DNA of 57,643 nt from Dethiosulfovibrio faecalis (lineage in GTDB: Bacteria > Synergistota > Synergistia > Synergistales > Dethiosulfovibrionaceae): positions 1 through 57,643 of the forward strand of contig NZ_JAKGUE010000019.1 of the NCBI RefSeq assembly GCF_021568795.1. Reading direction: 5' to 3'. Positions 40,991-56,485 of this stretch are shown in pieces (positions within the stretch are counted from its first letter, which is position 1; every line of letters begins with the position of its first letter). A program made the translations under genes and the position numbers. Under the pieces are notes generated by a model. The model was not told the origin of the DNA, searched no databases, and was given only the letters and a program-made list of their open reading frames with translations.

Positions 40991-41190
40991 GTCCCCTCGG
41001 CGAGGAGTCCGACGGGGCCCGTTTGAGCCCGTATTTTCGACCTGCCGTCGTGTAGAATGGATGGGGCGACAGGACGTCGCCCCAAGCCGAGGGGGCACAG
41101 GACGTGCCCTCCGAGGCGGTCCGTTCGGAACAGGCAGGTCGAAAATACGCTCGGGCGAGACAGGGCCCCGTCGGGCTCCTCGCCGAGGAC
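40991..41190. repeat. Fold-back element: 56-base imperfect inverted repeat enclosing two AGGAC-loop hairpins
   Basis: Left arm 40991-41046 and right arm 41133-41190 are inverse complements with few mismatches: 17 identical bases at the inner end (GGCAGGTCGAAAATACG) and 25 of 26 at the outer end (around GGCCCCGTCGG, CTCCTCGCCGAGG). Between them lie two hairpins with the same pentaloop AGGAC: GGGGCGAC-AGGAC-GTCGCCCC at 41063-41083 and an imperfect GGGGCAC-AGGAC-GTGCCC at about 41091-41111. The whole can form one long stem with a branched head. It holds no credible coding frame and ends 45 bases before the symporter operon. It could be a structured RNA, a MITE-like element or a leader. Confidence 0.7.
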
Positions 41191-41234: not shown

Positions 41235-41351
41235 ATGTTCTTCGCTCAGACACTGTCCCGTCGCCCCTATCTACTGGTATGGGGGGCCTTCGCGGTCCTC
41301 GCCGCTCTGCCCTGGATCTACCTCTACTGCCGCAGGAGGAACGGAAGATGA
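41235..41351 (+). CDS. 38-residue single-span membrane peptide before the symporter
   Basis: An ATG at 41235, with GAGGAGGA eight to ten bases upstream, opens a 38-codon frame. The product has a short basic start (MFFAQTLSRRP), one membrane helix (YLLVWGAFAVLAALPWIYLY) and a basic end (CRRRNGR), so it should lie with its C-terminus inside. Its stop TGA overlaps the ATG of the symporter (ATGA). The arrangement is that of a small transporter subunit or a translation-coupling peptide. Small partner proteins precede some sodium:solute symporter genes, but I do not recognise this one. Confidence 0.6.
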   Translation: MFFAQTLSRRPYLLVWGAFAVLAALPWIYLYCRRRNGR

Positions 41352-42739
41352 CCCTGCAATCCCTTCTGTACCGGCTGGTGGCCTTCGGAGGCTACGGGAT
41401 GGCCCTCATCCTGCTGGCCGGTCGAGCCTTCCAGTGGAACGAGACGAGACGATCCTTCTACCTGGGGGGCAGAGGAATCGCCCTCTGGCCCTCGGTAGGC
41501 ACCTTCGGAGCCACCTGGATGAGCGCGGCGTCGCTGTTGGGCTACACGGTGCTGCTGTATCAGGAGGGATACGCCGCCTTCACAGGATCGGTCATAGGGT
41601 GGATGCTGGGACTTCCCCTGCTCCCTCTGGCGGTGATAAGGCTGAGAAAGAGCCGGGCCCTGTCCCTTCCCCAGTGGCTGGAGGAACGTTACTCGGACGA
41701 CAGGCTCCGATCCCTGTCGGCCCTCTGCCTTCTGGTGGTCTACACGGTCTACCTGATAATACAGTTCAGGGCCTTCGGAGCCATCGTCGGCTCCATGCTG
41801 GACATAGAGGGCTTCATGGCCTCCATCCTGGTCTACCTCTTCGTGCTCTACACCACCTTCGGAGGCCTTCCGTCGGTGGTAAGAAGCGACGGCCTCAACC
41901 TCATGGTAATAGTGGCCTCCGTCACCGTGGCGGCCTGGAGCATAACATCTCAGACCGGAGGCTTTCCCTCCATACACGAGAGGCTGCTGGACCTAAGGCC
42001 GGAGCTGCTCCAGCCCTGGCCGAAAGAGGGGATATTGGCCTCCATGGCGATGGCCCTGGGCTGGGGGCTGGGGGTGGCGGCCAACCCTCAGTACTGCATA
42101 AGGATAATATCCTGCAAAGACAGATGGACCGCCTGGCTGACCCTGGCGATAACTTCTTTAACCGTATCCTGGATCTACATCTGCCTCACCGCCCTGGGGC
42201 TGGGGACCAAGACCCTTCATCCCTTCGTAACCGGAGGATCTCAGGAGATACTGTTCTCTCGTCTCATGGAGGCAGGCCTTTCGCCTCTTCCTCTGGCCCT
42301 GTTGATGGTGGGAGTCCTCGCCGCAGCCGTCAGCACCGCCAACTCCCAGCTGCTGCTGGCCGCCTGCTCCTTTTGTTACGACCTTCAGGGAGAGGGTCGC
42401 ATACCGTCCAAAGACCCCCTGGAGGAGGACGGCTTTCTCTTCAAGAACAGGATCGCGGTGGCGATAATAGCCACAGTGACGCTGTTTCTCAGCTACATGC
42501 CCCTTCCCGGCATACTCCAGCTCGGTCGCTACAGCTGGAGTATGGTTGCACTGTGCTTTCTGCTTCCCCTGTACCTTCCCAGGACGAAGGGCAGAGGAGG
42601 GCTGTTCGGAGCCATGTCCACCGCCCTGATCGTCTACAACCTCCTGGTATGGTTTTCCGGCATGTCCCCCGAGACGGCGATGCTTCCGTCCCTTTTGATA
42701 GAGGGGATCCTATGGTGGATCCTGGGAGCCAGACGATGA
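41348..42739 (+). CDS. Sodium:solute symporter (SSS) family protein
   Basis: A 463-residue membrane protein with about twelve to thirteen helices. SSS hallmarks are FYLGGRGIALWPSVGTFGATWMSAAS near the N-terminus, GGLPSVVRSDGLNLMVIV, and the conserved VGVLAAAVSTANSQLLLAA. The sequence is nearest PutP/PanF-type symporters, which import proline, pantothenate or similar small acids with sodium. ATG 41348 overlaps the small membrane peptide by four bases and the kinase gene downstream overlaps it by four. Because it is coupled to a sensor kinase, it may act as co-sensor or as supplier of the signal molecule. An amino acid or 5-oxoproline are reasonable guesses, not shown. Confidence 0.9.
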   Translation: MTLQSLLYRLVAFGGYGMALILLAGRAFQWNETRRSFYLGGRGIALWPSVGTFGATWMSAASLLGYTVLLYQEGYAAFTGSVIGWMLGLPLLPLAVIRLRKSRALSLPQWLEERYSDDRLRSLSALCLLVVYTVYLIIQFRAFGAIVGSMLDIEGFMASILVYLFVLYTTFGGLPSVVRSDGLNLMVIVASVTVAAWSITSQTGGFPSIHERLLDLRPELLQPWPKEGILASMAMALGWGLGVAANPQYCIRIISCKDRWTAWLTLAITSLTVSWIYICLTALGLGTKTLHPFVTGGSQEILFSRLMEAGLSPLPLALLMVGVLAAAVSTANSQLLLAACSFCYDLQGEGRIPSKDPLEEDGFLFKNRIAVAIIATVTLFLSYMPLPGILQLGRYSWSMVALCFLLPLYLPRTKGRGGLFGAMSTALIVYNLLVWFSGMSPETAMLPSLLIEGILWWILGARR

Positions 42740-43989
42740 TAGGCCCAGATCTGGAGACCAGGGTAAAGGCGGTCGTAACTGGCCTGACCTTCTGCCTCAC
42801 GGTCATCCTGATAGCCATGTCCCTCTCGATAGACTTTCACGAAACCTACATGTCCGAACAGGGAAAGATAGACGAGCTATCCGGTCGATCGAGCGATCTG
42901 ACGTCTCGACAGGTCATGGAGATCATAGACAGAGAGGGAGAGGCCTGGCGGATAACCTCCGAGGGAGACGGCACCTCCGTGACGACCTCCGACGGAGCGA
43001 GCTGGAAGGTGAGCCTGAACGGAAAACACGTTCTGACCGCCATACTGCACAGACGACGCCATCTTCTGGTGGCGGGGATGATATGCCTGCTCCTCTCGGC
43101 GGAGATGGCCGTCTTTCTGGCCTACTGGCTGACGAGGCCCCTCAAGAGGCTTGCCTGGGGATGTGCCAAGGTCGGCAGAGGAGACCTATCGGATCTTCCC
43201 GTCGAGAGATCCGGCTCCTACGAACTGGAGATACTTCAGGACGCGTTCAACGCAATGGTCAGAGGTCTGAGGGAAAGGCAGAGCCTGGAGCGTCGGATCT
43301 CCAGGATGGAGAGGCTGGCCGCCCTGGGACAGGTCGTGGCCGGGGTATCCCACGAGATAAAGAACCCCCTGGCGGCCATGAGAATTCATCTGGACCTGTT
43401 GAGCGGCGCAAGAAGCGGAGAGACGGAGGACGAGGAATCCCTACAGGTCCTCAGCTCGGAGCTGGACCGACTCAACCGTGTGGTGACCCAGCTACTATCC
43501 TTCGCCAGACCTACCCCGACCGTGCCGGGCCCGATAGAACCGAGGGAGCTTTTCCGCTGGTGTCACAGTATGGTGAGGGTCCGACTCTCCCGAAAATCGA
43601 TCGGCTGGCATGAAGCGGTCGACAACGGCACCGAGCTTTGGGGAGACAGAGGGCAGATGCAGCAGCTGCTGTTGAACCTTGTCTTGAACGGCATAGAGGC
43701 CATGGACGAAGAGGGAGATCTGTACGTTTCATGCCGTAGATCCGGCAAAGGTACCTCTATGTCCGTCGAGGACACCGGCGGCGGCGTGCCGGACCGTGTG
43801 GCGGATAGGATCTTCGACCCCTTCGTGACTTCGAAACCGGACGGCACCGGGCTCGGCCTATCGGTCGTCTACAGGATAGTGGAGGACCATCGAGGGACAA
43901 TGGACCTGGAGACATCCCCCGATGGCACCAGACTGGACCTCTGGTTTCCCGGTCCGACCGATAAGGACAACGAGGAGGATGAAATATGA
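42736..43989 (+). CDS. Sensor histidine kinase (NtrB-type) of the sigma-54 system
   Basis: A 417-residue membrane kinase. TM1 about residues 13-32, a small periplasmic domain of about 80 residues, TM2 about 115-133 (LLVAGMICLLLSAEMAVFLAYW), HAMP, HisKA with H206 in VSHEIKNPLAAM, and HATPase_c with NLVLNGIEAM (N box), VEDTGGGVPD (G1) and GTGLGLSVVYRIVE (G2). The HEIKNPL form of the H box is typical of kinases paired with NtrC-family regulators. ATGA overlaps link it to the symporter before and the activator after. The ligand may be sensed by its short periplasmic domain, or through the symporter. Confidence 0.93.
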   Translation: MIGPDLETRVKAVVTGLTFCLTVILIAMSLSIDFHETYMSEQGKIDELSGRSSDLTSRQVMEIIDREGEAWRITSEGDGTSVTTSDGASWKVSLNGKHVLTAILHRRRHLLVAGMICLLLSAEMAVFLAYWLTRPLKRLAWGCAKVGRGDLSDLPVERSGSYELEILQDAFNAMVRGLRERQSLERRISRMERLAALGQVVAGVSHEIKNPLAAMRIHLDLLSGARSGETEDEESLQVLSSELDRLNRVVTQLLSFARPTPTVPGPIEPRELFRWCHSMVRVRLSRKSIGWHEAVDNGTELWGDRGQMQQLLLNLVLNGIEAMDEEGDLYVSCRRSGKGTSMSVEDTGGGVPDRVADRIFDPFVTSKPDGTGLGLSVVYRIVEDHRGTMDLETSPDGTRLDLWFPGPTDKDNEEDEI

Positions 43990-45341
43990 AAGTCTGGATA
44001 ATAGAGGACGAAAGAGCCCTGGCCCAGGGACTCAAGACCGCCTTCGAGAGAAAGGGCTACGAGTCCCGCACGGCATCGGGGCTCAAGGGGCTGAACTCCA
44101 TGATGGAGCAGGAATCCCCGGAGATAGTCTTCCTCGACGTCAGGCTCGACGACGGGGACGGCCTCAAGGGACTTCCCCACATACTTCAGGCGTCTCCGGA
44201 GGCCAAGGTGATAGTTATGACAGCCTTCGGCGACTCTGCCCTGGTGGTACGGGCCATAAGGGAGGGAGCTTTCAACTATCTGGACAAGCCCTTCCCCCTG
44301 GAGGCCGCCATGAACATGGCCCAAAGGGCGTCGGAGGCCATAGCCCTTGCCAGGAGGGTCTCCCGAATGGAGACGTCCAGGGCGGTCTCCCTGATAGGCT
44401 CGTCCCGGGCGGTTCAAGAGATCGGCGGTTTCGTCGAAAAAGTCTCGAGACACGAAGACGTCAACGTCCTGATAAGGGGAGAAAGCGGCACGGGGAAGGA
44501 GGTCGTGGCCAGGATGATCCACGGCGCCTCGGGAAGCTCCGGCGAGTTCGTCGCCATAAACTGCGCCGCCATACCGGAAAGCCTTCTGGAGGCGGAGCTG
44601 TTCGGGTCGAGAAAAGGAGCCTACACCGGGGCTTCCGCCGACAAGAGAGGGCTGGTGGAGCTGGCCGACGGAGGCACCCTCTTTCTGGACGAAATAGGAG
44701 ACATGCCGACCTCTCTCCAGAGCAAGATGCTCCGCTTTCTGGACTCCCGGTCCCTCAGGCCTCTGGGATCCTCCAGGGAAATCCAGGTATCCCTGAGGGT
44801 GGTGTGCGCCACCTGCGCAGACCTGGAGGACAGGATATCCTCCGGAGCCTTCAGAAAGGACCTGTACTACAGGATAGCCATGTTACCGATAGAGCTCCCC
44901 CCTCTTAGAGAAAGAGGCCGAGACGCTCTGGAGCTCCTGGAACACTTCATCGTCCTGTACAGCGACAGGCTCGGGCGGGCGCCTCTGATCCCCTCCTCCG
45001 ACGTGGAGGAAGTCTTCCTGTCCTACAGATGGCCGGGAAACGTCAGGGAGCTCAAGAACCTGGTGGAGCGGCTTTTCATACTAAAAGACCAGAGGGACCG
45101 CACCATATCTCTGAAGGACCTTCCCCAAGAGATGCTGGACGCCATGCCCACCGACAGGGAGGCCGAATCGAGGCACGAGACCGACGGCAGGCCCCTTCAA
45201 CGACAGCTGGACGACGTGGAGAAAGAGCTTCTGACCCAGGCGCTGTCCGACTCGGGGGGCAACAGGACCAGGGCGGCCTCCTCTCTGGGACTGTCCCGAT
45301 ACGCCCTTTTGAGACGACTTCAGAAACATGGCCTGGACTGA
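43986..45341 (+). CDS. NtrC-family sigma-54 activator (response regulator)
   Basis: A 451-residue bacterial enhancer-binding protein. A receiver domain with phospho-acceptor D51 (VFLDVRL) is followed by the AAA+ domain: Walker A GESGTGKE (about 165-172), the sigma-54 contact loop GAYTGA (211-216; Y replaces the usual F), Walker B GTLFLDEIGDMP and an arginine finger region near RKDLYYRIAMLPIELPPLRER. A Fis-type helix-turn-helix ends the protein (GGNRTRAASSLGLSRYALLRRLQ). Tyrosine at this loop position occurs naturally in active members. It should be phosphorylated by the kinase encoded just before and act on the sigma-54 encoded just after (14-base overlap). Confidence 0.95.
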   Translation: MKVWIIEDERALAQGLKTAFERKGYESRTASGLKGLNSMMEQESPEIVFLDVRLDDGDGLKGLPHILQASPEAKVIVMTAFGDSALVVRAIREGAFNYLDKPFPLEAAMNMAQRASEAIALARRVSRMETSRAVSLIGSSRAVQEIGGFVEKVSRHEDVNVLIRGESGTGKEVVARMIHGASGSSGEFVAINCAAIPESLLEAELFGSRKGAYTGASADKRGLVELADGGTLFLDEIGDMPTSLQSKMLRFLDSRSLRPLGSSREIQVSLRVVCATCADLEDRISSGAFRKDLYYRIAMLPIELPPLRERGRDALELLEHFIVLYSDRLGRAPLIPSSDVEEVFLSYRWPGNVRELKNLVERLFILKDQRDRTISLKDLPQEMLDAMPTDREAESRHETDGRPLQRQLDDVEKELLTQALSDSGGNRTRAASSLGLSRYALLRRLQKHGLD

Positions 45342-46503
45342 CGACTCTCCGAGGCTGACCCAGCAGTTAAGGACCGAGCTGCTTCACCTGCCCGTCCTCA
45401 TCCAAAACCTCAGGCTCCTGACCATGCCGGTACAGGAGCTGGTGGACACGGCCATAGGCGAACTGACCGACAACCCCCTCTACGAGGTGAGCCCTCCCCG
45501 ATCGTGGCGGGAGTCGGGCATACTGGACGACCTCTCGGAAGAACCGTCCCTGGAGGAAGACCTTATCCGTCAGATGGCCCAGTGTCGTCCCCTTCGGGAG
45601 GAAAGGGACTCTCTGCCGTATGAACTGGTCCGCTACCTGGATCGCAGAGGCTATCTGACCGACGACCAGGAGGCCATTGCCGACCAGCTGGATCTGACCG
45701 CAGAGAGATTCGACCTCCTGCTGGAGAGAGTCAGGAATATAGTGGAACCCCCTGGGCTGTTCGCAAGAGATCTGATCCATTGCCTGTCGCTGCAGCTGAT
45801 CAGATCGGGAAAAGGAGAGTCGGACGGAGCGAAGATCCTTGAGATGGCGGTGGACCTGCTGGGAAAGGGAGACCCCAAGGATGCGATGGAGAGACTCGGA
45901 TGGAACCGAAGCAGATTCGACCGAGCCATGGAGGAATTATCGCACCTCGACCCAGCCCCGGGCCGCCGCACGACGGCACAGGCAGTGATCCCCGAGCTGG
46001 TACTCTATCCCGACCAGGACAGACCTGCGGTCGTCCTGGCCGAAAACCTTCCCAGGATATACATGACCCCTCTGACCTGGGAGGACGACAGAGTGGCATC
46101 CATGAAGGATAGAGGACTTCACATAATCCGGTCCATAGCCAGGAGGAACGCGTCCAAACTCTCCCTGGCCATAGAGGTGGCGAAAAGACAGAGAGGCTAC
46201 CTCATGTCCCGGGAGCAGGCCCCCTCTCCTCTGACCATGACGGAGATGGCCGACAGACTGGACAGATCGGTCTCGACGGTGCAGAGAATCGCCTCCACCA
46301 CCTGGGCTGTGACCCCGGTGGGAACCCTGCCTCTGGACCGTCTCTTCAGCCGTCCTCTGAGATCCCGTCCGGACATGTCGGTGGCACAGCTGAGGTCGAG
46401 GATAGAGGAGGCGAATAGAGAAGGAATGTCCGACTTGGAGCTGTCTCGAACCCTGGGAATACCGAGAAGGACGATAACATGGCATAGACAGAGACAAAGA
46501 TAG
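45328..46503 (+). CDS. rpoN: RNA polymerase sigma-54 factor, divergent
   Basis: A 391-residue RpoN, shorter than the usual 430-480. Region I is present (LTQQLRTELLHLPVLIQNLRLLTMP...LVDTAIGELTDNPLYEV). The core-binding region has EPPGLFARDLIHCLSLQL, and the helix-turn-helix region reads MTEMADRLDRSVSTVQRIAS. The C-terminal RpoN box, normally ARRTVAKYRE, is PRRTITWHRQ (residues 379-388), and the protein ends three residues later. The key double arginine and threonine remain, but the K-Y-R part that reads the -24 element is W-H-R. ATG 45328 lies inside the activator gene. The acidic linker between regions I and III is short. Promoter preference could be slightly altered. Confidence 0.9.
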   Translation: MAWTDDSPRLTQQLRTELLHLPVLIQNLRLLTMPVQELVDTAIGELTDNPLYEVSPPRSWRESGILDDLSEEPSLEEDLIRQMAQCRPLREERDSLPYELVRYLDRRGYLTDDQEAIADQLDLTAERFDLLLERVRNIVEPPGLFARDLIHCLSLQLIRSGKGESDGAKILEMAVDLLGKGDPKDAMERLGWNRSRFDRAMEELSHLDPAPGRRTTAQAVIPELVLYPDQDRPAVVLAENLPRIYMTPLTWEDDRVASMKDRGLHIIRSIARRNASKLSLAIEVAKRQRGYLMSREQAPSPLTMTEMADRLDRSVSTVQRIASTTWAVTPVGTLPLDRLFSRPLRSRPDMSVAQLRSRIEEANREGMSDLELSRTLGIPRRTITWHRQRQR

Positions 46504-46594: not shown

Positions 46595-49500
46595 ATGAAA
46601 AAAGCTCTCATGCTGTATCTGGCGTTGTGTCTCGCGTCAATTTTGAGTTTTACCTGCCCCTCTCCAGGTCAGACAAGGGGAGATCCCTACCTGGAGGGCA
46701 AAAGAGTGCTGATGATAAGCTCCTACCATCCGGGTTTCACCACATTCTTCCCCCAGGTAGAGGGAGTCAAGTCCGTGTTGGACCCGGAAGGGATCGCCCT
46801 GGACGTCGAATTCATGGATACAAAAAGGTTCGAGGACGAGGGGAACCTGGCGAGATTCCGCTCTCTCATCGAGGCAAAACTGGAGCGGCTTCCCCGGTAT
46901 GACGCGGTCCTTACCGCGGACGACGCCGCTTTGAGGTTCGTCCTGGAGCACGGGAAAGACCTCTTTCCGGAGATCCCCGTGGTGTTCTGCGGGGTCAACG
47001 ACATCGACCTGGCCTTGAAGCAAAACTCAGACCCCATGGTCACAGGGGTCGTCGAGGACGTCTCCATGAGGGGTACGCTGGAACTGACCAAACTCCTACA
47101 GCCGGAGGTCAAGGAGATCGTGGCCATATCGGACGGAACGGTATCGGGAATCGCGGACGCCAGGAAATTCCGCCCCATAGGCTTCGCCCTGGAAGGGGTG
47201 GAGTTCTCCCTTATCTCCCTCAAGGACCTGTCCTGGAAAGAGGCCCGCGAAAGGCTGAGGTCCTTCGACGACGAGACTGCCGTCCTGCTCCTGTCGGCTT
47301 ACCTCGACTCCGAAGGGATCTCCAAATCCTTCGAGGAGGGCCTTGAATACCTCACGGACGGACTTAATATCCCCGTTTACCACCTCTGGGCCCACGGCAT
47401 AGGGAAGGGCCTTCTGGGCGGACGGATAATCTCCCAGAAACAACAGGGCCGAAACGCCGCCAAGATGGTCGTCCAGATACTTAAGGGGACCTCTCCGAAG
47501 GATATACCGGTACTCACGGAGAGCCCGAACAGCTACCTATTCGACCACGCCCAGCTCGAACGTTTCGACATCCCATCCTACAGGCTGCCTGAAGACTCCA
47601 TCGTCATCGGAAAACCCGTTCCGTTTTATGAATGCGAGCCCATCGTGTTCTGGGCTATTCTAGGATTTGCCGGTCTACTAACCCCTATCTCGCTTCTAAC
47701 CACCTATCTGTTTCTAAAAGGCAAAAAGGACTCACTAGCTCTGAGGGAAAGCGAAAAACGATACAGATCACTCATAAAGAACGCCTCGGAGGGAATACTG
47801 GTGACGGCCCTGCCGGACAGAGAGATACTGTACGCTAACCCTGCCATGACCGAGATGTTGGGCTACCCCTACATGGGAATAAGGGGCAAAAACGAATCGG
47901 AGATCCACCCCGACCGCTCAACCGGAGTCGACCCTCACGGCAAGCCCGGCAAAGCAGAGATCGACTTCATGAGATCCGACGGATCGGTATTCGTCGCCGA
48001 GGAAAACTGGACCAAGATAGCCATCGACGGCAAACCCGCCCTTCTGGGATTCGTGACGGACATCACGGATAGACGCAGGATTGACGAGGAGCTTAGAAAA
48101 CACAGAGACGAACTGGAACGGACGGTAAAGGAGAGGACGACGGAACTCGAGCAGGCCAAGGTGGACGCGCTGTCTCTAGCCGCCAGAGCTCAGGAAGAGA
48201 ACATAAAGGCCAACGAGACCCTGGAGAAACTGGCCAGATCGGAAAAGATGCTCATAGACGCCAAGGACGCCGCCGACGAGGCCAACAGGGCCAAGAGCGA
48301 CTTTCTGGCTACCATGAGTCACGAGATAAGGACCCCTCTCAACGCCATCATAGGCCTCAGTCAACTCCTGTTAAGGGAGGACATCTCGGAGAGACACCGA
48401 GACAGGATAGCCAAGATAGACTCGTCCGGCAAGACTCTGCTGGCCATAATAGACGATATATTGGACTTCTCTAAGATAGAGGCGGGCAAGCTCGAGATAG
48501 AGAGGATTCCCTTCTCCCTGGAGAGAACCGTCTCCGAGACGGTGGAGGCTTTCTCAGTGGAGGCGGAGGGAAAACGGGTGGAATTACACCTGGAGATCTC
48601 TCCGGACCTCCCGTCGTCCGTCCTGGGAGATCCCTTCAGGATAAGACAGATACTGAACAACCTCATAAGCAATGCCATCAAGTTCACCGAAGAGGGAGAC
48701 ATTATCGTATCCCTAAAGAAGGGCAGCCGATATGAGGACGAGATGGAGCTGATATTCTCCGTCTCCGACACAGGGATCGGCATGACGGACGAACAGCTGG
48801 ATCGAATTTTCGACCCGTTCATACAGGCCGACAGCTCTACCACCAGGAAATACAGGGGAACGGGCCTCGGCCTCTCCATATCCCATAAATTATGCGAGCT
48901 CATGGGAGGGAAGATAAGAGCAGAGAGCCGTCTCGGAGAGGGCAGCGCTTTCACATTCTCCGTCACGGTAGGCATTACGGACGGAGAGAACGGAACGATA
49001 TACAGGCCTCAGGATAAAACCCGGTCGGCGTTGACGGACCTTAGGATACTCGTCGTGGACGACAACCCCATAGCGAGAAAGATCCTCCGGGAAATGCTAA
49101 AGTCCATGACCTTCGACGTTGAGACGGTCTCCTCCGGAGAGGACGCTATAGCCAGACTTAAAGCCTCCGAAGAGGAGGACATCTCCTTCGACGTAGTAAT
49201 AATGGACTGGAAGATGCCCCGGATGGACGGAATAGAGACGGCCATAAAAATATCGGAATCCGGGTTGAACAAATCTCCGAAGCTTCTCATGGTGACAGGT
49301 CATCGTAGAGCCGAGATAGTGGAAAAGGCCAGATCGTATGGGTTCATCGACGTCCTGTCCAAGCCCGTCCAGCCCTCCTCCCTGTTGGACTCCATAATGG
49401 AGTCCATATCGAAAGGGCACCCCGACAGAACCTACGGCAACGATGAAGGACCGGCGGACTTTTCCGAGGAAAAACTCCGGGGAGCCAAGATTCTCCTGGT

Positions 49501-50521
49501 GGAGGACAACGATCTGAACCTGGAGGTCGCCGCCGGAATTCTTCAACAGGCGGGAGCGATGGTAATATCCGCTAAGAACGGACTAAAAGCGATTGAGATC
49601 TTCTCGAAAGACCACTTAGACCTGATACTCATGGACGTTCAGATGCCGGAGATGGACGGTTTCGAGACAACGGAGAGGATCAGAGAAAAAGAAAGCGAGG
49701 AGACGGAACGGAAGAGAACCCCCATAGTGGCCATGACAGCCCATGCCATGTCGGGAGACAGAGAGATATGTATAGAGGCAGGCATGGACGACTACGTCAC
49801 CAAGCCTATAGACCGGGATATCCTGATAGACACGTCCTGTCGGTGGATATTCGGAAAATCTTCTAAGGGGAAGGACTCTCCCAACGCCCCTGCCGACAAG
49901 GAGATCCCGGAGAAACTCCGGATAAAGGGAATAGACCCAGGGATGGGGATATACCGAACGGGATCGGACCTAGAGGGCTACGTTCGGTTCCTCCGAAAGT
50001 TCGTGGAGCAATTCCACGACACCGCCTCCGACGTAGCGAAAGCCATCGACGCCGCCGATTACGACAAGGCCACCTGGGAACTTCACTCCCTAAAGGGGAC
50101 CGCCGGCAACCTGGGGCTGATAGAGCTCCAAGAGATATCGGAACTGCTGGAGTCGGCGATCCGAAAGGACAGGGAAAACGTACCGCCCATACTTGAGGCT
50201 TTCGAAGGGGTACATCGAAGAACTCTAGAGGATCTTCAGAAGGCGATACCCCCTGAAACGGACGAAAGGAAAAAGAAGAGCGACCACAACGCCTCGACCA
50301 ACGGAGCGTTGATGCTAGAGGAGCTGAAATCGCTGCTCGACAGGAGACAGCCTCAACCGGCCCTCTCCATACTGGAGGAAACCGTCTGGCCCGAAGAGAT
50401 AAAAGAGGAGATCGAAAGGATATCGAGTTCCGTAAAGAGATATCGTTTCGAGGAGGCCATCCCCATGGTGGAAAGGCTGAGCGAAAAGCTCAAGGCCCCC
50501 TCTGAAGGAGGGCTCCCATGA
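46595..50521 (+). CDS. Hybrid histidine kinase with ABC-binding-protein-type sensor
   Basis: A 1308-residue signalling protein. In order: signal sequence (1-25), an extracytoplasmic ABC_sub_bind-type (PF04392-like) sensor (about 35-320; VLMISSYHPGF, YDAVLTADDAALRFV, IPVVFCGVNDID), a membrane helix (about 347-372), PAS (about 385-500), a coiled coil, HisKA with H576 in MSHEIRTPLNAI, HATPase_c (GTGLGLSISHKLCELMGGKI), receiver 1 with D871 (MDWKMP), receiver 2 with D1014 (MDVQMP), and an HPt domain with H1164 (LHSLKGTAGNLGL). All phosphotransfer residues are intact. ATG 46595 follows GGAGGG. It is co-translated with the HD-GYP response regulator downstream. Confidence 0.94.
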   Translation: MKKALMLYLALCLASILSFTCPSPGQTRGDPYLEGKRVLMISSYHPGFTTFFPQVEGVKSVLDPEGIALDVEFMDTKRFEDEGNLARFRSLIEAKLERLPRYDAVLTADDAALRFVLEHGKDLFPEIPVVFCGVNDIDLALKQNSDPMVTGVVEDVSMRGTLELTKLLQPEVKEIVAISDGTVSGIADARKFRPIGFALEGVEFSLISLKDLSWKEARERLRSFDDETAVLLLSAYLDSEGISKSFEEGLEYLTDGLNIPVYHLWAHGIGKGLLGGRIISQKQQGRNAAKMVVQILKGTSPKDIPVLTESPNSYLFDHAQLERFDIPSYRLPEDSIVIGKPVPFYECEPIVFWAILGFAGLLTPISLLTTYLFLKGKKDSLALRESEKRYRSLIKNASEGILVTALPDREILYANPAMTEMLGYPYMGIRGKNESEIHPDRSTGVDPHGKPGKAEIDFMRSDGSVFVAEENWTKIAIDGKPALLGFVTDITDRRRIDEELRKHRDELERTVKERTTELEQAKVDALSLAARAQEENIKANETLEKLARSEKMLIDAKDAADEANRAKSDFLATMSHEIRTPLNAIIGLSQLLLREDISERHRDRIAKIDSSGKTLLAIIDDILDFSKIEAGKLEIERIPFSLERTVSETVEAFSVEAEGKRVELHLEISPDLPSSVLGDPFRIRQILNNLISNAIKFTEEGDIIVSLKKGSRYEDEMELIFSVSDTGIGMTDEQLDRIFDPFIQADSSTTRKYRGTGLGLSISHKLCELMGGKIRAESRLGEGSAFTFSVTVGITDGENGTIYRPQDKTRSALTDLRILVVDDNPIARKILREMLKSMTFDVETVSSGEDAIARLKASEEEDISFDVVIMDWKMPRMDGIETAIKISESGLNKSPKLLMVTGHRRAEIVEKARSYGFIDVLSKPVQPSSLLDSIMESISKGHPDRTYGNDEGPADFSEEKLRGAKILLVEDNDLNLEVAAGILQQAGAMVISAKNGLKAIEIFSKDHLDLILMDVQMPEMDGFETTERIREKESEETERKRTPIVAMTAHAMSGDREICIEAGMDDYVTKPIDRDILIDTSCRWIFGKSSKGKDSPNAPADKEIPEKLRIKGIDPGMGIYRTGSDLEGYVRFLRKFVEQFHDTASDVAKAIDAADYDKATWELHSLKGTAGNLGLIELQEISELLESAIRKDRENVPPILEAFEGVHRRTLEDLQKAIPPETDERKKKSDHNASTNGALMLEELKSLLDRRQPQPALSILEETVWPEEIKEEIERISSSVKRYRFEEAIPMVERLSEKLKAPSEGGLP

Positions 50522-51573
50522 TCGACGACAGAAAGACCCTTTTGGTGGTCGACGACAGGGAGATCAACATAGACATACTGCTCTCCTTCCTGTCCGATGA
50601 ATACCAGATAAGCGTCGCCATGGACGGAGAGACTGCGCTGAGTCTGGCCCGTGAGGTCCATCCCGACCTGATTCTGCTGGATGTCATGCTTCCCGACCTG
50701 GACGGTTTCGAGGTATGCAGACGACTCAAGGCCGACGGAAGGACCGATCGAATACCGGTGATCTTCGTGACCGCCCTCAACCAGGAGATGGACGAAGCCC
50801 GGGGCTTGGAACTGGGCGCGGTGGACTACATAACCAGGCCCTTCAGCCCTCCTCTCGTGATGGCCAGGATAAGAAACCATCTGGAACTGGAGAGACACAG
50901 AAACAACCTGGAAAGGCTGGTCAGGGAGAGGACAAAGGACCTTCAGATAGCTCAGCTTGCCTCGGTCCACTGTATGGCGACTCTGGCCGAGGCGAGAGAC
51001 AGCGACACAGGAGCCCATATACAGAGAACTAGAAAATACGTCCTGCTTCTGGGCAACGACCTTGTGAAAACGAACAGGATAGATAGACGGATCACGAAAA
51101 GAGAGGTCGACCTAATGGCCCAGGCGTCTCCCCTACACGACGTAGGTAAGATCGGCCTACCGGACAGAATCCTGTTGAAACCGGGCAAACTGACCCCCAA
51201 GGAGTTCGACGAGATGAAACTACATACCATATACGGGGGAGACATCCTGCGAAACGTCGAGAGGGAAATGGGCTCCGTGCCCTTTCTGGTGATGGCCAGG
51301 GAAATAGCGGAAAATCACCACGAAAAATGGGATGGATCGGGCTATCCCAGAGGTCTGTCCGGACCGCAGATCCCGCTATCGGCGAGGATAATGGCCGTCG
51401 CCGACGTGTACGACGCACTGAGAAGCGTTCGCCCCTATAAGGAAGCTTTTTCACACTGCAAGGCTGTATGCATAATGACAGAGGAATCGGAGGGACATTT
51501 CGACCCCGTCCTGATAGAGAGATTTTTCGAGCTGCAAGATCAGTTCGACAGGATCTCCAGACAGACGAAATAG
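50518..51573 (+). CDS. Response regulator with HD-GYP c-di-GMP phosphodiesterase output
   Basis: A 351-residue RpfG-type protein. The receiver domain has D55 in LLDVMLPDLDG, the usual acidic pair in VVDDRE and a lysine-to-arginine change at the switch (ITRPFSPP, where TKPF is usual). The HD-GYP domain carries H207-D208 in HDVGKIGLPD and HHEKWDGSGYPRGLSG, intact. ATG 50518 overlaps the hybrid kinase stop (ATGA), so phosphate from the kinase HPt domain is expected to reach this receiver and change c-di-GMP breakdown. The kinase-regulator pair thus links a periplasmic ligand to c-di-GMP. Confidence 0.94.
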   Translation: MIDDRKTLLVVDDREINIDILLSFLSDEYQISVAMDGETALSLAREVHPDLILLDVMLPDLDGFEVCRRLKADGRTDRIPVIFVTALNQEMDEARGLELGAVDYITRPFSPPLVMARIRNHLELERHRNNLERLVRERTKDLQIAQLASVHCMATLAEARDSDTGAHIQRTRKYVLLLGNDLVKTNRIDRRITKREVDLMAQASPLHDVGKIGLPDRILLKPGKLTPKEFDEMKLHTIYGGDILRNVEREMGSVPFLVMAREIAENHHEKWDGSGYPRGLSGPQIPLSARIMAVADVYDALRSVRPYKEAFSHCKAVCIMTEESEGHFDPVLIERFFELQDQFDRISRQTK

Positions 51574-51593: not shown

Positions 51594-51635
51594 ACCGACC
51601 GTGCGAAAAACGCACGGTCGGTGCGCTTTTCGCAC
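51594..51635 (+). promoter_or_regulatory. Two GTGCG-N5-CGCAC palindromes (candidate enhancer sites)
   Basis: GTGCGAAAAACGCAC (51601-51615) and GTGCGCTTTTCGCAC (51621-51635) are 15-base palindromes of one pattern, 20 bases centre to centre (two helical turns). The first sits in a longer palindrome (51594-51622, ACCGACCGTGCG arm) that could also form a terminator-like hairpin after the HD-GYP regulator gene, but no T-run follows. Centres are about 115 and 135 bases before the -12 GC of the sigma-54 promoter, a typical enhancer distance. Confidence 0.6.
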
Positions 51636-51729
51636 CCACTCGAACCGAACGGATCTCGGGCACACAGAGCAGAAGACGGAAAAACGCTGGAATAGCCACA
51701 TTTTTTCATCTTGAGAAAAAAGTAGCATC

Positions 51730-51745
51730 TGGCAACTTTTTTGCT
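51730..51745 (+). promoter_or_regulatory. Sigma-54 (-24/-12) promoter of the NRAMP-pxp operon
   Basis: TGGCAACTTTTTTGCT matches the consensus TGGCACG-N4-TTGCW with GG and GC at the exact required spacing (GG 51731-51732, GC 51743-51744). It is preceded by paired palindromes and followed, about 47 bases later, by the ATG of the first gene with GGAGGT. No comparable sigma-70 promoter is seen in this gap. Confidence 0.7.
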
Positions 51746-51791
51746 TTTATCTTTTACAGAGAGCCATTATCTTTATATCGGAGGTGCTTTT

Positions 51792-53015
51792 ATGTCCACG
51801 GAAAAGATCACTTTAGGAGACGAAAAGGCGAAACAGGGCAGCACTTTAAGCGTACTGATGGGGGCGGCCTTCCTCATGGCGACTTCCGCCATAGGCCCGG
51901 GATTCCTGACCCAGACGGCGGTGTTCACGGAGAAGATGCAGCTGGCCTTCGCATTCGCCATTCTGGCGTCGGTGCTGATCGACATAGTGGTCCAGATGAA
52001 CATCTGGAGGATACTGGCCGTATCGGGAATGAGGGCCCAGGACGTGGCGAACAAGGTGCTGCCCGGTCTGGGATACTTCATCGCCTTCGCCGTAGCCCTG
52101 GGCGGTCTGGTGTTCAACATAGGCAACGTAGGAGGGGCGGCCATGGGAGTCAACGTCCTGACCGGCCTTCCCATACCGGTCGGAGCCAGTATCAGCGCCC
52201 TCATAGCCATATTCATCTTCCTCCGCAAGGAGATGGGCAACGCCATGGACAAGTTCACCCAGATCTTGGGCTTCGTCATGATCGCCATGGTGCTGTTCAT
52301 GGTCTTCAGGACTCATCCTCCCGTAGGAGCCACTCTTAAAGAGGCCGTGCTACCCTCCCATATCGACTGGATGATCGTCCTCACCCTTGTCGGAGGAACC
52401 GTCGGAGGATACATCTCCTTCGCCGGAGCCCACAGGATAATAGACGCCGGCCTCACCGGCGAGGAGAACATCGGGGCCATAAGCAAGGGCTCCATCAACG
52501 CCGTCGCCATAACCGGCATCATGAGGTTCCTCCTCTTCCTGGCGATCCTGGGAGTCGTCATGATGGGGCACCCCCTCGACCCGACCAATCCCCCTGCGTC
52601 GGCATTCCAGATCGGAGCGGGAGATCTGGGCTACAAGATCTTCGGAATAATCCTCTGGGCCGCCGGGATCACCTCTGTCATAGGGGCCTCCTACACGTCC
52701 ATATCCTTCCTTAGGACCCTTTTCAAATCGGTAGGCGATCACTACAGGGCCTGGATGATAGGGTTCATAGTGTTCTCCACCGCCATACTCGCTACGATAG
52801 GCAAACCGGTGGCTCTGTTGATCTTCGCCGGATCGATCAACGGTCTCATACTGCCTCTGGCCCTGATATCGGTGCTTCTTGCGGCGCATAGAAAGGACAT
52901 CGTAGGAACCTACAGACACCCCATGTGGATGTCCCTCATAGGCTACATCATGGCGGCCTTCACCATGTGGATGGGGGTCAAATCCCTCAGCAAGATCATG
53001 GCGCTGTTCTCCTGA
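51792..53015 (+). CDS. NRAMP-family permease (YcsG-like)
   Basis: A 407-residue membrane protein with eleven or so helices, related to NRAMP metal transporters. GPGFLTQTAVFTEKMQLAFAF corresponds to helix 1, whose metal-site DPGN motif is not conserved. YcsG-type proteins of this kind usually lie next to 5-oxoprolinase genes, as in Bacillus subtilis, and are more likely importers of 5-oxoproline or a related compound, or of a metal for the enzyme. ATG 51792 follows GGAGGTG. It leads the pxp operon and is downstream of a sigma-54 promoter. The upstream in-frame extension contains promoter sequence and is not used. Confidence 0.85.
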   Translation: MSTEKITLGDEKAKQGSTLSVLMGAAFLMATSAIGPGFLTQTAVFTEKMQLAFAFAILASVLIDIVVQMNIWRILAVSGMRAQDVANKVLPGLGYFIAFAVALGGLVFNIGNVGGAAMGVNVLTGLPIPVGASISALIAIFIFLRKEMGNAMDKFTQILGFVMIAMVLFMVFRTHPPVGATLKEAVLPSHIDWMIVLTLVGGTVGGYISFAGAHRIIDAGLTGEENIGAISKGSINAVAITGIMRFLLFLAILGVVMMGHPLDPTNPPASAFQIGAGDLGYKIFGIILWAAGITSVIGASYTSISFLRTLFKSVGDHYRAWMIGFIVFSTAILATIGKPVALLIFAGSINGLILPLALISVLLAAHRKDIVGTYRHPMWMSLIGYIMAAFTMWMGVKSLSKIMALFS

Positions 53016-53047
53016 TAGGACGCAATCGACCGTAGGACTATAATGAA

Positions 53048-53072
53048 GCCGGGAGCCGACGACGCTCCCGGC
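53048..53072 (+). promoter_or_regulatory. Intercistronic hairpin between permease and pxpB
   Basis: GCCGGGAGC (53048-53056) pairs perfectly with GCTCCCGGC (53064-53072). There is no T-run, so it is more likely an mRNA processing or stability element than a terminator. TATAAT at 53039-53044 just before it might be a weak internal -10. Confidence 0.45.
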
Positions 53073-53096
53073 CACGTCGATTAGGAGGAGACGCCG

Positions 53097-53840
53097 ATGA
53101 AAGAGACAGAACCAAGGATACGACCGGCCGGAGATTCCTGCCTGGTCGTCGATTTCGGAAACGCCATAGCTCTGGAGATAAACGCCAAGGTGCAGGCCCT
53201 CAGATCCAGTCTGGAGGCCCGTCCCGTTCCCGGCATCATGGAGCTCATGCCGACATATCGATCTCTGGCCGTCTACTTCGACCCAGTGGAGACGGACCTG
53301 GAGAGGCTCCGAGCGGTTATCTCGGCCGGGATCGGATCGATAGACGAGCAAGTAGAGATAGGATCCAAAGAGGCCGTCATTCCGGTATGCTACGGCGGCG
53401 AATACGGACCGGATCTCGAATCGGTGGCGATACACCACGGGATATCCGAGGAAGAGGTCATACGCCGTCACTGCTCCAACAGCTGCTACTGCTACATGCT
53501 GGGCTTCACCCCCGGATTCTCCTATCTGGGAGGCATGGACGAATCCATAGCCACCCCCAGGCTGGAGACCCCCAGAGAGCTGATACCGGCGGGCAGCGTC
53601 GGCATAGCGGGCAAACAGACCGGGATCTACCCCATAGACAGCCCCGGAGGCTGGCAGCTCATAGGGCGCACTCCCCTGGTGATGTACGACCCGACCAGAG
53701 AGCCCGCCACCCTTCTCGACGCAGGGCTCTGGATTCGATTCCGCCCGGTCGGAGAGGACGAATATCTGGACATCAGGGAAAAGGCGGTTAAAAACGCCTA
53801 CGAGCTGGAGATAGTCGAGAAGGGAGATGGGACACTATGA
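53097..53840 (+). CDS. pxpB: 5-oxoprolinase subunit B (KipI-type)
   Basis: A 247-residue subunit of the ATP-dependent PxpABC 5-oxoprolinase, which opens 5-oxo-L-proline to L-glutamate. The AHS1/KipI domain shows the conserved CYCYMLGFTPGFSYLGG (about residues 128-144) and GIYPIDSPGGWQLIGRTP. Many homologues are annotated allophanate hydrolase subunit 1 or KipI. ATG 53097 follows AGGAGGAG; the gene overlaps pxpC by four bases. With PxpC it is thought to perform the phosphorylation step. The location beside pxpC, pxpA, DUF1445 and an NRAMP permease makes the call firm. Confidence 0.93.
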   Translation: MKETEPRIRPAGDSCLVVDFGNAIALEINAKVQALRSSLEARPVPGIMELMPTYRSLAVYFDPVETDLERLRAVISAGIGSIDEQVEIGSKEAVIPVCYGGEYGPDLESVAIHHGISEEEVIRRHCSNSCYCYMLGFTPGFSYLGGMDESIATPRLETPRELIPAGSVGIAGKQTGIYPIDSPGGWQLIGRTPLVMYDPTREPATLLDAGLWIRFRPVGEDEYLDIREKAVKNAYELEIVEKGDGTL

Positions 53841-54901
53841 AGCTGCTCGTCCGATCTCCGGGCATATTGACCACCGTGCAGGACCTGGGCAGATGGGGAC
53901 ATCAGGCCATAGGCATGCCAGTAGCTGGAGCGATGGACCCAATGGCGCTTCGCAGAGGAAACATCATGGTCCACAACGACCCCGGGGCTGCCGCCCTGGA
54001 GATAACCGTCGTGGGCCCGAAGCTGGCGGTTCAGGGAAGTGGAATCGTGGCCCTCGCCGGGGGAGACCTGGGCATGACGGTCAACGGAACCGACGTACAA
54101 CCCTGGACGACCCATGCGGTTGAGGACGGCGACGTTATCTCATTCTCCGGCATGAAAGACGGCCTGTGCAGAGGCTATCTATGCGTCTCCGGAGGAATAG
54201 ACGTACCGCCTCTCATGGGAAGCCGCTCCACCTACCTGAGGGGGAAGATAGGCGGCCTTCAGGGCAGAGCCCTCAAGGCGGGAGACGAGCTGGATACAGG
54301 GTCCCCCTACATCTTGAGAGAGAGATGCGTCGGCTTCGTGTGTCCCGAGGATCTCAGGCCGGACTACTCTCCCTCCCGACCGATGGACGTGGTTCCCGGC
54401 CCTCAGGACGACCTCTTCACCGACGAGGGAATAAAGACCTTCCTATCCGAGGAATACGTCGTCTCCGCCGCGGCGGACCGAATGGGCTACCGCATGGAGG
54501 GACCGACCATAGAACACGTCGACGGAGCGGACATAGTCTCCGACGCCATATGTCTCGGGGCGGTTCAGGTTCCGGGACACGGTCAACCGATCGTGATGAT
54601 GGCGGACAGACAGACCACCGGGGGCTACACGAAGATAGCGGTCCTCACAGCCAACTCGGTGGCAAGACTTGCCCAGAGGCTCCCGGGACAACCGGTACGC
54701 TTCTCCGCCATGAGCCAGGATCAGGCCATAATCGAGGCCAGGGAGGAAAGAGGTCGACTGGAGTCCCTCAGACTGGCCCTCGAAAGCTGGATAGCCGATC
54801 CGACGAAAGACGAAAAGGAACGGGTCGAACCGGCAACGGAGGGACAATGTCGCATCACCGTCGACGGCGAAACCTACGAGGTCCAATGGGAGAAAATCTA
54901 G
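53837..54901 (+). CDS. pxpC: 5-oxoprolinase subunit C (KipA-type)
   Basis: A 354-residue AHS2/KipA-family protein, partner of PxpB. Family stretches are LTTVQDLGRWGHQAIGMPVAGAMD near the N-terminus, YLCVSGGIDVPPLMGSRSTYLRG in the middle, and MMADRQTTGGYTKIAVL toward the end. It starts in an ATGA overlap with pxpB and is followed after 16 bases by pxpA. Together PxpB and PxpC phosphorylate 5-oxoproline and PxpA completes hydrolysis. Annotators often call it biotin-dependent carboxyltransferase or allophanate hydrolase subunit 2, which is not supported by this gene neighbourhood. Confidence 0.93.
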   Translation: MKLLVRSPGILTTVQDLGRWGHQAIGMPVAGAMDPMALRRGNIMVHNDPGAAALEITVVGPKLAVQGSGIVALAGGDLGMTVNGTDVQPWTTHAVEDGDVISFSGMKDGLCRGYLCVSGGIDVPPLMGSRSTYLRGKIGGLQGRALKAGDELDTGSPYILRERCVGFVCPEDLRPDYSPSRPMDVVPGPQDDLFTDEGIKTFLSEEYVVSAAADRMGYRMEGPTIEHVDGADIVSDAICLGAVQVPGHGQPIVMMADRQTTGGYTKIAVLTANSVARLAQRLPGQPVRFSAMSQDQAIIEAREERGRLESLRLALESWIADPTKDEKERVEPATEGQCRITVDGETYEVQWEKI

Positions 54902-54917
54902 AGGAGGCATGACGTAG

Positions 54918-55691
54918 ATGTACAAGATAGATCTGAACAGCGATCTGGGCGAGAGTTTCGGCGCCTACACCATGGGAAAGGACGGCCAGGTCCTGGAAAG
55001 CGTCTCCTCCGCCAACGTGGCCTGCGGCTTTCACGCAGGAGACCCGTCGGTCATGGTCGAGACCGTGAAGATGGCCTCGTCCAGAGGCGTCGCCATAGGG
55101 GCCCATCCGGGCTATCCCGACCTGGTCGGGTTCGGACGGAGAAACCTGAAGTGCACCCCCGACCAGGTCTACGCCGACTGCCTCTACCAGATAGGGGCCA
55201 TTTCCGCGGCCTGCAGGGCTACGGGAACCTCGCTACAGCACGTCAAACCCCACGGAGCCATGTACAACACCGCGGCCAAGGATCTAGAGATGGCCAGGGC
55301 CATAGCCTGCGCCGTGAAGGACGGAGGGGATAACCTGATTCTCATGGGGCTGTCGGGATCGCTGTTCCAGAAGGCGGCGGAGGAAACAAGCGTTCCCTTC
55401 GCTTCGGAGGCCTTCGCCGATCGAGCCTACATGGCCGACGGGACCCTCGTCCCCAGGAGCATGGAGGGAGCGGTCATACACGACTCCGACGAGGCGGCGT
55501 CCAGGGTGGTCAGGATGATAAAAGAGGGCATCGTCACGACCCTGTCCGGAGAGGATATAGAGCTTAGCCCCCACTCGATCTGTCTGCACGGCGACACCGC
55601 CGAGGCGGTGGAGATGTCCAGAGAACTCAGAAAGACGCTGGAGGCGGAGGGAATAGAGATAGCCAATCTCAGGGAGGTGCTGAAACTATGA
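54918..55691 (+). CDS. pxpA: 5-oxoprolinase subunit A (LamB/YcsF)
   Basis: A 257-residue LamB/YcsF-family protein with family motifs [11 protein letters not shown] at the N-terminus, [27 protein letters not shown] and [10 protein letters not shown]. These carry the conserved histidines and aspartates. It is the hydrolytic part of 5-oxoprolinase. ATG 54918 follows GAGGAGG with ordinary spacing; it overlaps the DUF1445 gene by four bases at its 3' end. In a peptide fermenter the operon would recover glutamate from pyroglutamate, which forms spontaneously from glutamine and glutamyl peptides. Confidence 0.95.
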
Positions 55692-56485
55692 AAGCCACGG
55701 ACTACGGCGGATCTACGCCTCAAGAGGTCAGGGAAATAATCAGAAGAGGGGAATGGACCAAGCCCACCCCGGGGATGTGCAAGGGAAGGGTTCAAGCCAA
55801 TCTGATAGTCCTCCCCAAGGACTGGGCCTACGACTTCCTCGTCTTCGCCCAGAGAAACCCGACCCCCTGCCCCATACTGGACATCACCGAACCGGGCGAC
55901 ACCGAGGCCAGGATAATGGCCCCCGGCTCGGACATATCCAAGGATATTCCGAGATACGTGGTCTGGGAAAACGGCGTCAATATCGACGAGCCCACCGACG
56001 TCAGCTCCTACTGGCGGGACGACCTGGTCGGCTTCCTTCTGGGCTGTTCCTTCTCCTTCGAGAGCGCCCTAATGGAGGCGGATATTCCGATAAGGCACAT
56101 CGAGGAAAACCGCAACGTCCCCATGTACATCACCTCCATGAAGTGCCGTCCGGCCGGTAGGCTGTCGGGGCCTATGGTGGTCAGCATGAGACCCATCCCG
56201 GCGAGACAGGTTCCCAAGGCGGTTCTGTGCACAGGACGCTTCCCGGAAGTACACGGAGCCCCGGTTCACGTAGGAGACCCTGAGGCGATAGGGATAAAGG
56301 ACATCTCCAAGCCCGACTTCGGCGACTCGGTCACGATCCGTCCCGGCGAGGTCCCGGTATTCTGGGGATGCGGAGTGACGCCCCAGGCGGCGCTGATGGC
56401 CAGCAAACCTCCCTTCGCGATAACCCACGCTCCGGGACACATGATGATACTGGACCCCAAGGACGCCGATCTGGCGGTGTTCTGA
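55688..56485 (+). CDS. DUF1445 putative hydro-lyase (YcsI-like)
   Basis: A 265-residue protein of the DUF1445/YcsI family, which often accompanies 5-oxoprolinase genes. Typical stretches are [15 protein letters not shown] at the N-terminus, [16 protein letters not shown], and the C-terminal [20 protein letters not shown]-type region with [10 protein letters not shown] related domain occurs in vertebrate D-glutamate cyclase proteins, so a role in interconverting glutamate and 5-oxoproline, perhaps of the D form, is possible, but not shown. It starts in an ATGA overlap with pxpA and ends the operon; a terminator hairpin follows at 56497. Confidence 0.9.

Follow-up and report, generated by a model that had tools for sequence, protein, structure and literature searches.

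A Predicted Sigma-54 Switch Dedicated to the Uptake and Use of 5-Oxoproline in Dethiosulfovibrio and Other Synergistota

Gene Content of the Locus

The window, the whole stretch of DNA analyzed here, is 57,643 nucleotides long and represents contig 19 of the 2.67-Mb, 43-contig, 99.7% complete genome of Dethiosulfovibrio faecalis. All genes of the window described below are on the forward (+) strand. The regulatory half of the cluster starts with a sodium:solute symporter gene (41342-42739; PF00474), which adjoins the kinase gene in relatives. It is followed by the genes for a sensor histidine kinase (42736-43989), in which HAMP, HisKA, and HATPase domains were recognized by domain search, an NtrC-type activator (43986-45341) with a receiver, an AAA+ domain with a GAYTGA loop, and a Fis-type HTH (PF00072, PF00158, and PF02954), and a divergent sigma-54 (45328-46503). 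The core-binding, DNA-binding, and activator-interaction regions of this sigma-54 were recognized with Pfam, and its RpoN box reads IPRRTITWHR.

Downstream are a hybrid histidine kinase gene (46595-50521), which the neighbourhood comparison places downstream of sigma-54 and ahead of the promoter in some members of the genus, and the gene for a response regulator with an HD domain (50518-51573), the upstream neighbour of the promoter as indicated by domain search and neighbourhood comparison. Together (46595-51573; L166), they separate sigma-54 from its promoter in some genomes of the genus. This insert is absent from genome G001, and only fragments, with a broken HD-domain regulator, are left in G004. 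The hybrid kinase is probably dispensable for the switch proposed below.

The operon downstream of the promoter begins with a gene for an NRAMP-type transporter similar to YcsG/PxpT (51792-53015; Pfam Nramp). The 5-oxoprolinase subunit genes follow: pxpB (53097-53840; TIGR00370 above the cut-off), a gene of the pxpC family (53837-54901; TIGR00724 above the cut-off and the PxpC equivalog model below it), and pxpA (54918-55691; NF003814 above the cut-off). The last gene (55688-56485) encodes a protein of the putative hydro-lyase/D-glutamate cyclase family, with NF003969 and PF07286 above the cut-offs. The combination of PxpA, PxpB, PxpC, and an NRAMP-type transporter characterizes this as a pxpABC operon, with PxpC recognized by the broader model only.

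Several minor features were recognized around these genes. Between the transporter gene and pxpB (about 53045-53080), there is a strong hairpin, GCCGGGAGC...GCTCCCGGC, that has no T tract. A dispersed element with the inverted repeats GGGGGCACAGGACGTGCCC and GGGGCGACAGGACGTCGCCCC is found upstream of the symporter gene (about 41050-41180), and the same element adjoins the decayed HD gene in G004 (L166), upstream of the transporter gene; it is perhaps a mobile repeat. The one Rfam match was weak (16 bits against a gathering threshold of 50) and was disregarded.

Distribution of the Module in the Phylum

Sigma-54 was found in 43 of 188 genomes of the phylum. A module consisting of the symporter, kinase, NtrC-type activator, sigma-54, palindrome/promoter region, transporter, pxpB, pxpC, pxpA, and hydro-lyase was recognized in 34 genomes. 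Among the exceptions is G037, in which the symporter, kinase, activator, and transporter are missing locally. Contig ends interrupt the modules of G005 and G135, and there is no hydro-lyase within the stretch compared for G185.

In G033 and G185 (L216 and L228), reading of the loci revealed that a three-gene TRAP transporter takes the NRAMP position, preceded by the same palindrome and promoter. Bordetella is described as having TRAP systems for 5-oxoproline (PMC13274462), so that the replacement is in keeping with a transporter of unchanged substrate. In the neighbouring genus g3, four genomes have the transporter and no sigma-54. Two of them were examined; both have pxp genes, and neither the palindrome nor a -24/-12 element was seen upstream of the transporter gene in these two genomes.

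The Sigma-54 Promoter

The 16-base sequence TGGCAACTTTTTTGCT at 51730-51745 on the forward strand shows the GG-N10-GC spacing standard for sigma-54. Direct reading confirmed the exact -24/-12 spacing of TGGCA-N6-TTGCT claimed in an earlier sequence-only reading, and the GG-N10-GC in TGGCA/TTGC context is that of a sigma-54-dependent promoter. Transcription is predicted to start near 51756. The genome contains 10 exact TGGCAN6TTGCW sites, nine of which are located inside open frames of at least 247 codons; the site at 51730 is the exception.

Conservation of this site was observed both in the genus and in the phylum. Intergenic DNA shows little conservation when the two branches of the genus are compared, and the parts kept in both are the promoter GGCAACTTT(T/C)TTGCTT, the ribosome-binding region, and the core of the upstream palindrome, CCGTGCG-N5-CGCACGG. 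Among 33 aligned promoters from 15 genera, GCA and TTGC are invariant (33/33), and 17 are identical over the 14 bases GGCAACTTTTTTGC. The -24 dinucleotide is GG in 26 and AG in seven of the 33, and these seven AG sites speak for a reading in which the -24/-12 match is coincidental and the operon uses a sigma-70 promoter. Such near-perfect conservation of both elements over 15 genera argues against a coincidence, as does the sigma-54 gene, which adjoins the promoter or is close to it in nearly all loci. No sigma-70-like site was found between the palindromes and the transporter gene. The coincidence is therefore considered extremely improbable, and the sigma-54 promoter of the 5-oxoproline operon is very probably real.

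Palindromes Upstream of the Promoter

Two copies of GTGCG-N5-CGCAC, which has no strand, precede the promoter: P1, GTGCGAAAAACGCAC (51601-51615), and P2, GTGCGCTTTTCGCAC (51621-51635), the first and second proposed activator (enhancer) sites. Both are exact and their centres are 20 bp apart, in agreement with the two palindromes two helical turns apart described from the sequence alone. Their position before the -24 element also stood, while the claimed distance of 115-135 bases was slightly too large; P1 spans 129 to 115 bp and P2 109 to 95 bp before the element.

Within the window, two palindrome matches with one mismatch allowed are unremarkable (34 of 100 shuffles). In the whole 2.67-Mb genome, the exact palindrome occurs twice, at P1 and P2, and the reversed control pattern does not occur. 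Five relatives in the genus (G001, G003, G004, G005, and G006) likewise have the exact palindrome only before the same operon. In G002, another genome of the genus, the exact palindrome is absent, and so are sigma-54, the activator, the transporter, and the operon. Across the phylum, the exact palindrome is present in 23 of 33 loci and 11 of 15 genera, with 0.0065 loci expected from shuffles. Its distance to the -24 element varies between 79 and 176 bp, which fits an enhancer.

The six operon-bearing genomes of the genus have 2, 2, 2, 1, 1, and 1 copies; P2 is restricted to one branch, represented by G000 (the genome of the window), G001, and G003. Since a single exact copy is found in half of the genus and in most relatives, paired sites are not essential. 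As a point against the enhancer reading, the exact palindrome is absent from 10 of the 33 loci, which belong to genera g4, g6, g9, and g56 and include one locus of g35. Degenerate copies are seen in g9 and g56, 18 bp apart where there are two, and none in g4 and g6.

P1 is part of a perfect inverted repeat of 29 bases (51594-51622). Genus-wide (L163 and L165-L168), it sits in perfect inverted repeats of 29-41 bases with a stem of 12-18 bp, whose outer arms differ between species and remain complementary; a terminator, a cruciform, or extended protein contacts might be the cause. A protein site alone is insufficient to explain these covarying arms, and they count against the enhancer reading. 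Together with the position shortly after a stop codon and a run of six T after the palindrome in G032, the compensatory changes would suit an RNA hairpin, a terminator or 3' stabilizer of the upstream gene, unconnected to the promoter. In the window, however, no T tract meeting the terminator rule follows P1 and no terminator was predicted. Outside the genus, the arms shrink to 5-8 bp, yet the core GTGCG/CGCAC does not change, an identity that a terminator would not need. The palindrome also persists when the preceding gene differs (G001 versus G000). In six genomes (G000, G003, G004, G006, G136, and G137), intervening genes put 1.2-5.2 kb between the end of the sigma-54 gene and the transporter promoter, and the palindrome stays beside the promoter; it is thus not merely a terminator. 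The terminator-only reading, which the sequence-only reading had named as one that would undermine its proposal, is rejected on the fixed core letters, the missing T tract, and the linkage to the promoter, and a hairpin unconnected to the promoter is judged improbable. A double role of the palindrome as a site and a hairpin is possible in some genomes.

The Activator

The genome of the window encodes one full sigma-54 activator (43986-45341) and one sigma-54 (45328-46503), as the sequence-only reading had recognized within the window, and each is the sole protein of its kind. Their genes lie 5-8 kb upstream of the promoter and palindromes. The receiver, the AAA+ domain with a GAFTGA-type loop, and the Fis-type HTH identify the activator as an NtrC-family bEBP. 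It is not NtrC proper, with 373 bits for the ntrC equivalog TIGR01818 against a cut-off of 558.6. The loop is GAYTGA or GAFTGA in 29 of 31 activators and GSFTGA in G004 and G006 (L163 and L166). In a search of named genomes, a weak test of occurrence elsewhere with near records left out, the activator retrieved only distant homologues of other phyla, none of them near sigma-54, NRAMP, or pxp genes.

Exactly one activator (E below 1e-25) is found in 23 of the 34 module genomes. In a few genomes there is an additional sigma-54 or an additional AAA+ member of the family, which counts against the switch proposed below. A PF00158 protein of about 466 aa (L171 and L172) was considered as a second activator in G001 and G004 and rejected; it lacks the GAFTGA loop, no terminal Fis-type HTH was seen by reading, and it is probably not a true activator.

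The recognition helix of the activator is conserved as SR-[FY]-[SA]-L-[LI]-R-R. Four genomes of g4 and g6 have LLRK instead of LLRR/LIRR, and the same four loci have no palindrome. This suggests that the recognition helix and the palindrome change together, and the K-for-R change probably represents one evolutionary event.

The first gene of the operon is NRAMP-type, and its Bacillus subtilis relative is under the control of MntR, TnrA, KipR, and AhrC (PMC10448178). The palindromes might accordingly be bound by another regulator, such as a repressor or metal sensor, with sigma-54 acting independently at the promoter. Against such a regulator stand the joint absence of palindrome, sigma-54, and activator from G002, the recurrence of the palindrome where TRAP genes replace NRAMP (G033 and G185), and the joint conservation of activator helix and palindrome. 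A position 79-176 bp upstream suits an enhancer rather than a repressor, and among the genes of the window, which the comparison sought, no further conserved regulator was found in the module. Only a slim chance is given to another regulator. GTGCG-N5-CGCAC is supported by these sequence comparisons as the upstream sites of the NtrC-type activator.

The Divergent Sigma-54

In the sigma-54 of the window, PF04963 and PF04552 are above the cut-offs, and PF00309 reaches its cut-off in the genome search but misses it when the protein is scanned alone. The canonical RpoN box (A/S)RRTVAKYR is not found in the module sigma-54s. Their box is of the type PxRTVx(W/Y)H, in which I, L, or A may replace V, in 31 of 33 proteins, and the two exceptions have PVRTVAHH and SPRTVAWH. 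Other sigma-54s of the phylum have the canonical box, RRTV(A/T)KYR. A tree built from the 33 module proteins and seven non-module sigma-54s of the phylum has the former as one side of a single branch with a support of 100/100. Both kinds are present in G127 and G136.

Sigma-54 is the fastest-changing protein of the module. Its median identity to the protein of the window is 34.5%; the kinase, the other least conserved member, is at 40%, the activator at 56%, and the transporter at 72%. Relaxed constraint on a sigma factor serving one promoter may be inferred from these values. The sigma-54 of the window appears to be dedicated, with one activator in the genome and, as far as can be read from it, one promoter. 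It is rather likely that the module proteins represent a sigma-54 subfamily of their own, distinguished by an altered RpoN box, and a private factor inside the cluster it serves, with about one promoter per genome, one activator, and a unique palindrome across much of the phylum.

Proposed Mechanism and Comparison with Known Systems

In the proposed model, the kinase (42736-43989) would phosphorylate the neighbouring activator (43986-45341), whose dimers would occupy the GTGCG-N5-CGCAC sites, located about 100-130 bp before the promoter. Looping would then bring the bound activator to the holoenzyme of the divergent sigma-54 (45328-46503), where it would drive formation of the open complex, and the promoter at 51730-51745 would transcribe the NRAMP-pxpB-pxpC-pxpA-hydro-lyase operon. 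Binding, phosphorylation, and looping are established behaviour of NtrC-family activators and are predicted here on that basis. What the sequence itself shows is the elements, that they are unique and conserved, and how they are linked. Sigma-54 control of the pxp operon, as put forward in the sequence-only reading, gains support from the genome-unique palindrome, the conservation in the genus and the phylum, the co-loss in G002, and the one-to-one linkage of activator and sigma-54. As a whole, a switch with its own sigma-54 for taking up and using 5-oxoproline is considered highly likely. The signal of the kinase has an even chance of being outside 5-oxoproline or a related amino acid; this is ranked above general nitrogen or glutamate shortage, which seems rather unlikely. 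The responsiveness to nitrogen or amino acids that the sequence-only reading predicted is a guess.

The control proposed here resembles that by NtrC, AtoC, ZraR, and CbrB in the receiver-AAA+-Fis HTH activator with a GAYTGA loop, the kinase partner, the tandem palindromes, and the -24/-12 promoter. It differs in that the activator is below the NCBIfam equivalog cut-offs for NtrC, AtoC, and others, and in that sigma-54 is encoded in the cluster and seemingly private to it. Sigma-54 is usually shared among many activators and promoters. CbrA is a sodium:solute symporter fused to a kinase, and the symporter and the kinase are encoded by neighbouring genes in nearly every module here. Tandem palindromes aiding hexamer formation are described as frequent (PMC6296734). 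CbrB of Pseudomonas is a sigma-54 activator controlling amino-acid use and binds non-palindromic subsites (PMC6296734); it controls dozens of genes, unlike the one palindrome and one operon here. Sigma-54 with a single activator is known from Lactobacillus plantarum and Chlamydia trachomatis (PMC3162934), where the target is another one, whereas here sigma-54 is inside the cluster of its target and forms a separate clade.

The pxp operons of Corynebacterium glutamicum and B. subtilis have the same transporter-5-oxoprolinase gene set, but the regulators given in the available text are of other repressor and activator kinds, the GntR protein PxpR (PMC13274462) and TnrA/KipR/MntR/AhrC (PMC10448178), and this text does not mention sigma-54. 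The substrate of the NRAMP-type protein is debated, as 5-oxoproline (PMC13274462) versus manganese (PMC10448178). The control of 5-oxoproline metabolism was still called unstudied in 2026 (PMC13274462). No published sigma-54 control of pxp genes was found in the open-licence literature, and an earlier report is possible; the available parts of sigma-54 regulon surveys and Clostridioides difficile studies do not mention pxp genes.

With sensor, activator, sigma factor, enhancer, promoter, and target in one cluster, the switch would be unusually self-contained. It would give 5-oxoproline metabolism a positive, signal-driven switch, would offer a compact orthogonal sigma-54 system, and raises the question of what evolution makes of a sigma factor that has a single promoter to serve.

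The operon of symporter, kinase, activator, and sigma-54 might also regulate itself; no conserved palindrome was found for it, and -24/-12-like sites (GGCAGCATATTTGCA) are seen in genus g36 only. In g36 (L213, L231, L239, and L240), GGCAGCATATTTGCA is conserved about 325 bp before the symporter gene and is a possible second sigma-54 promoter.
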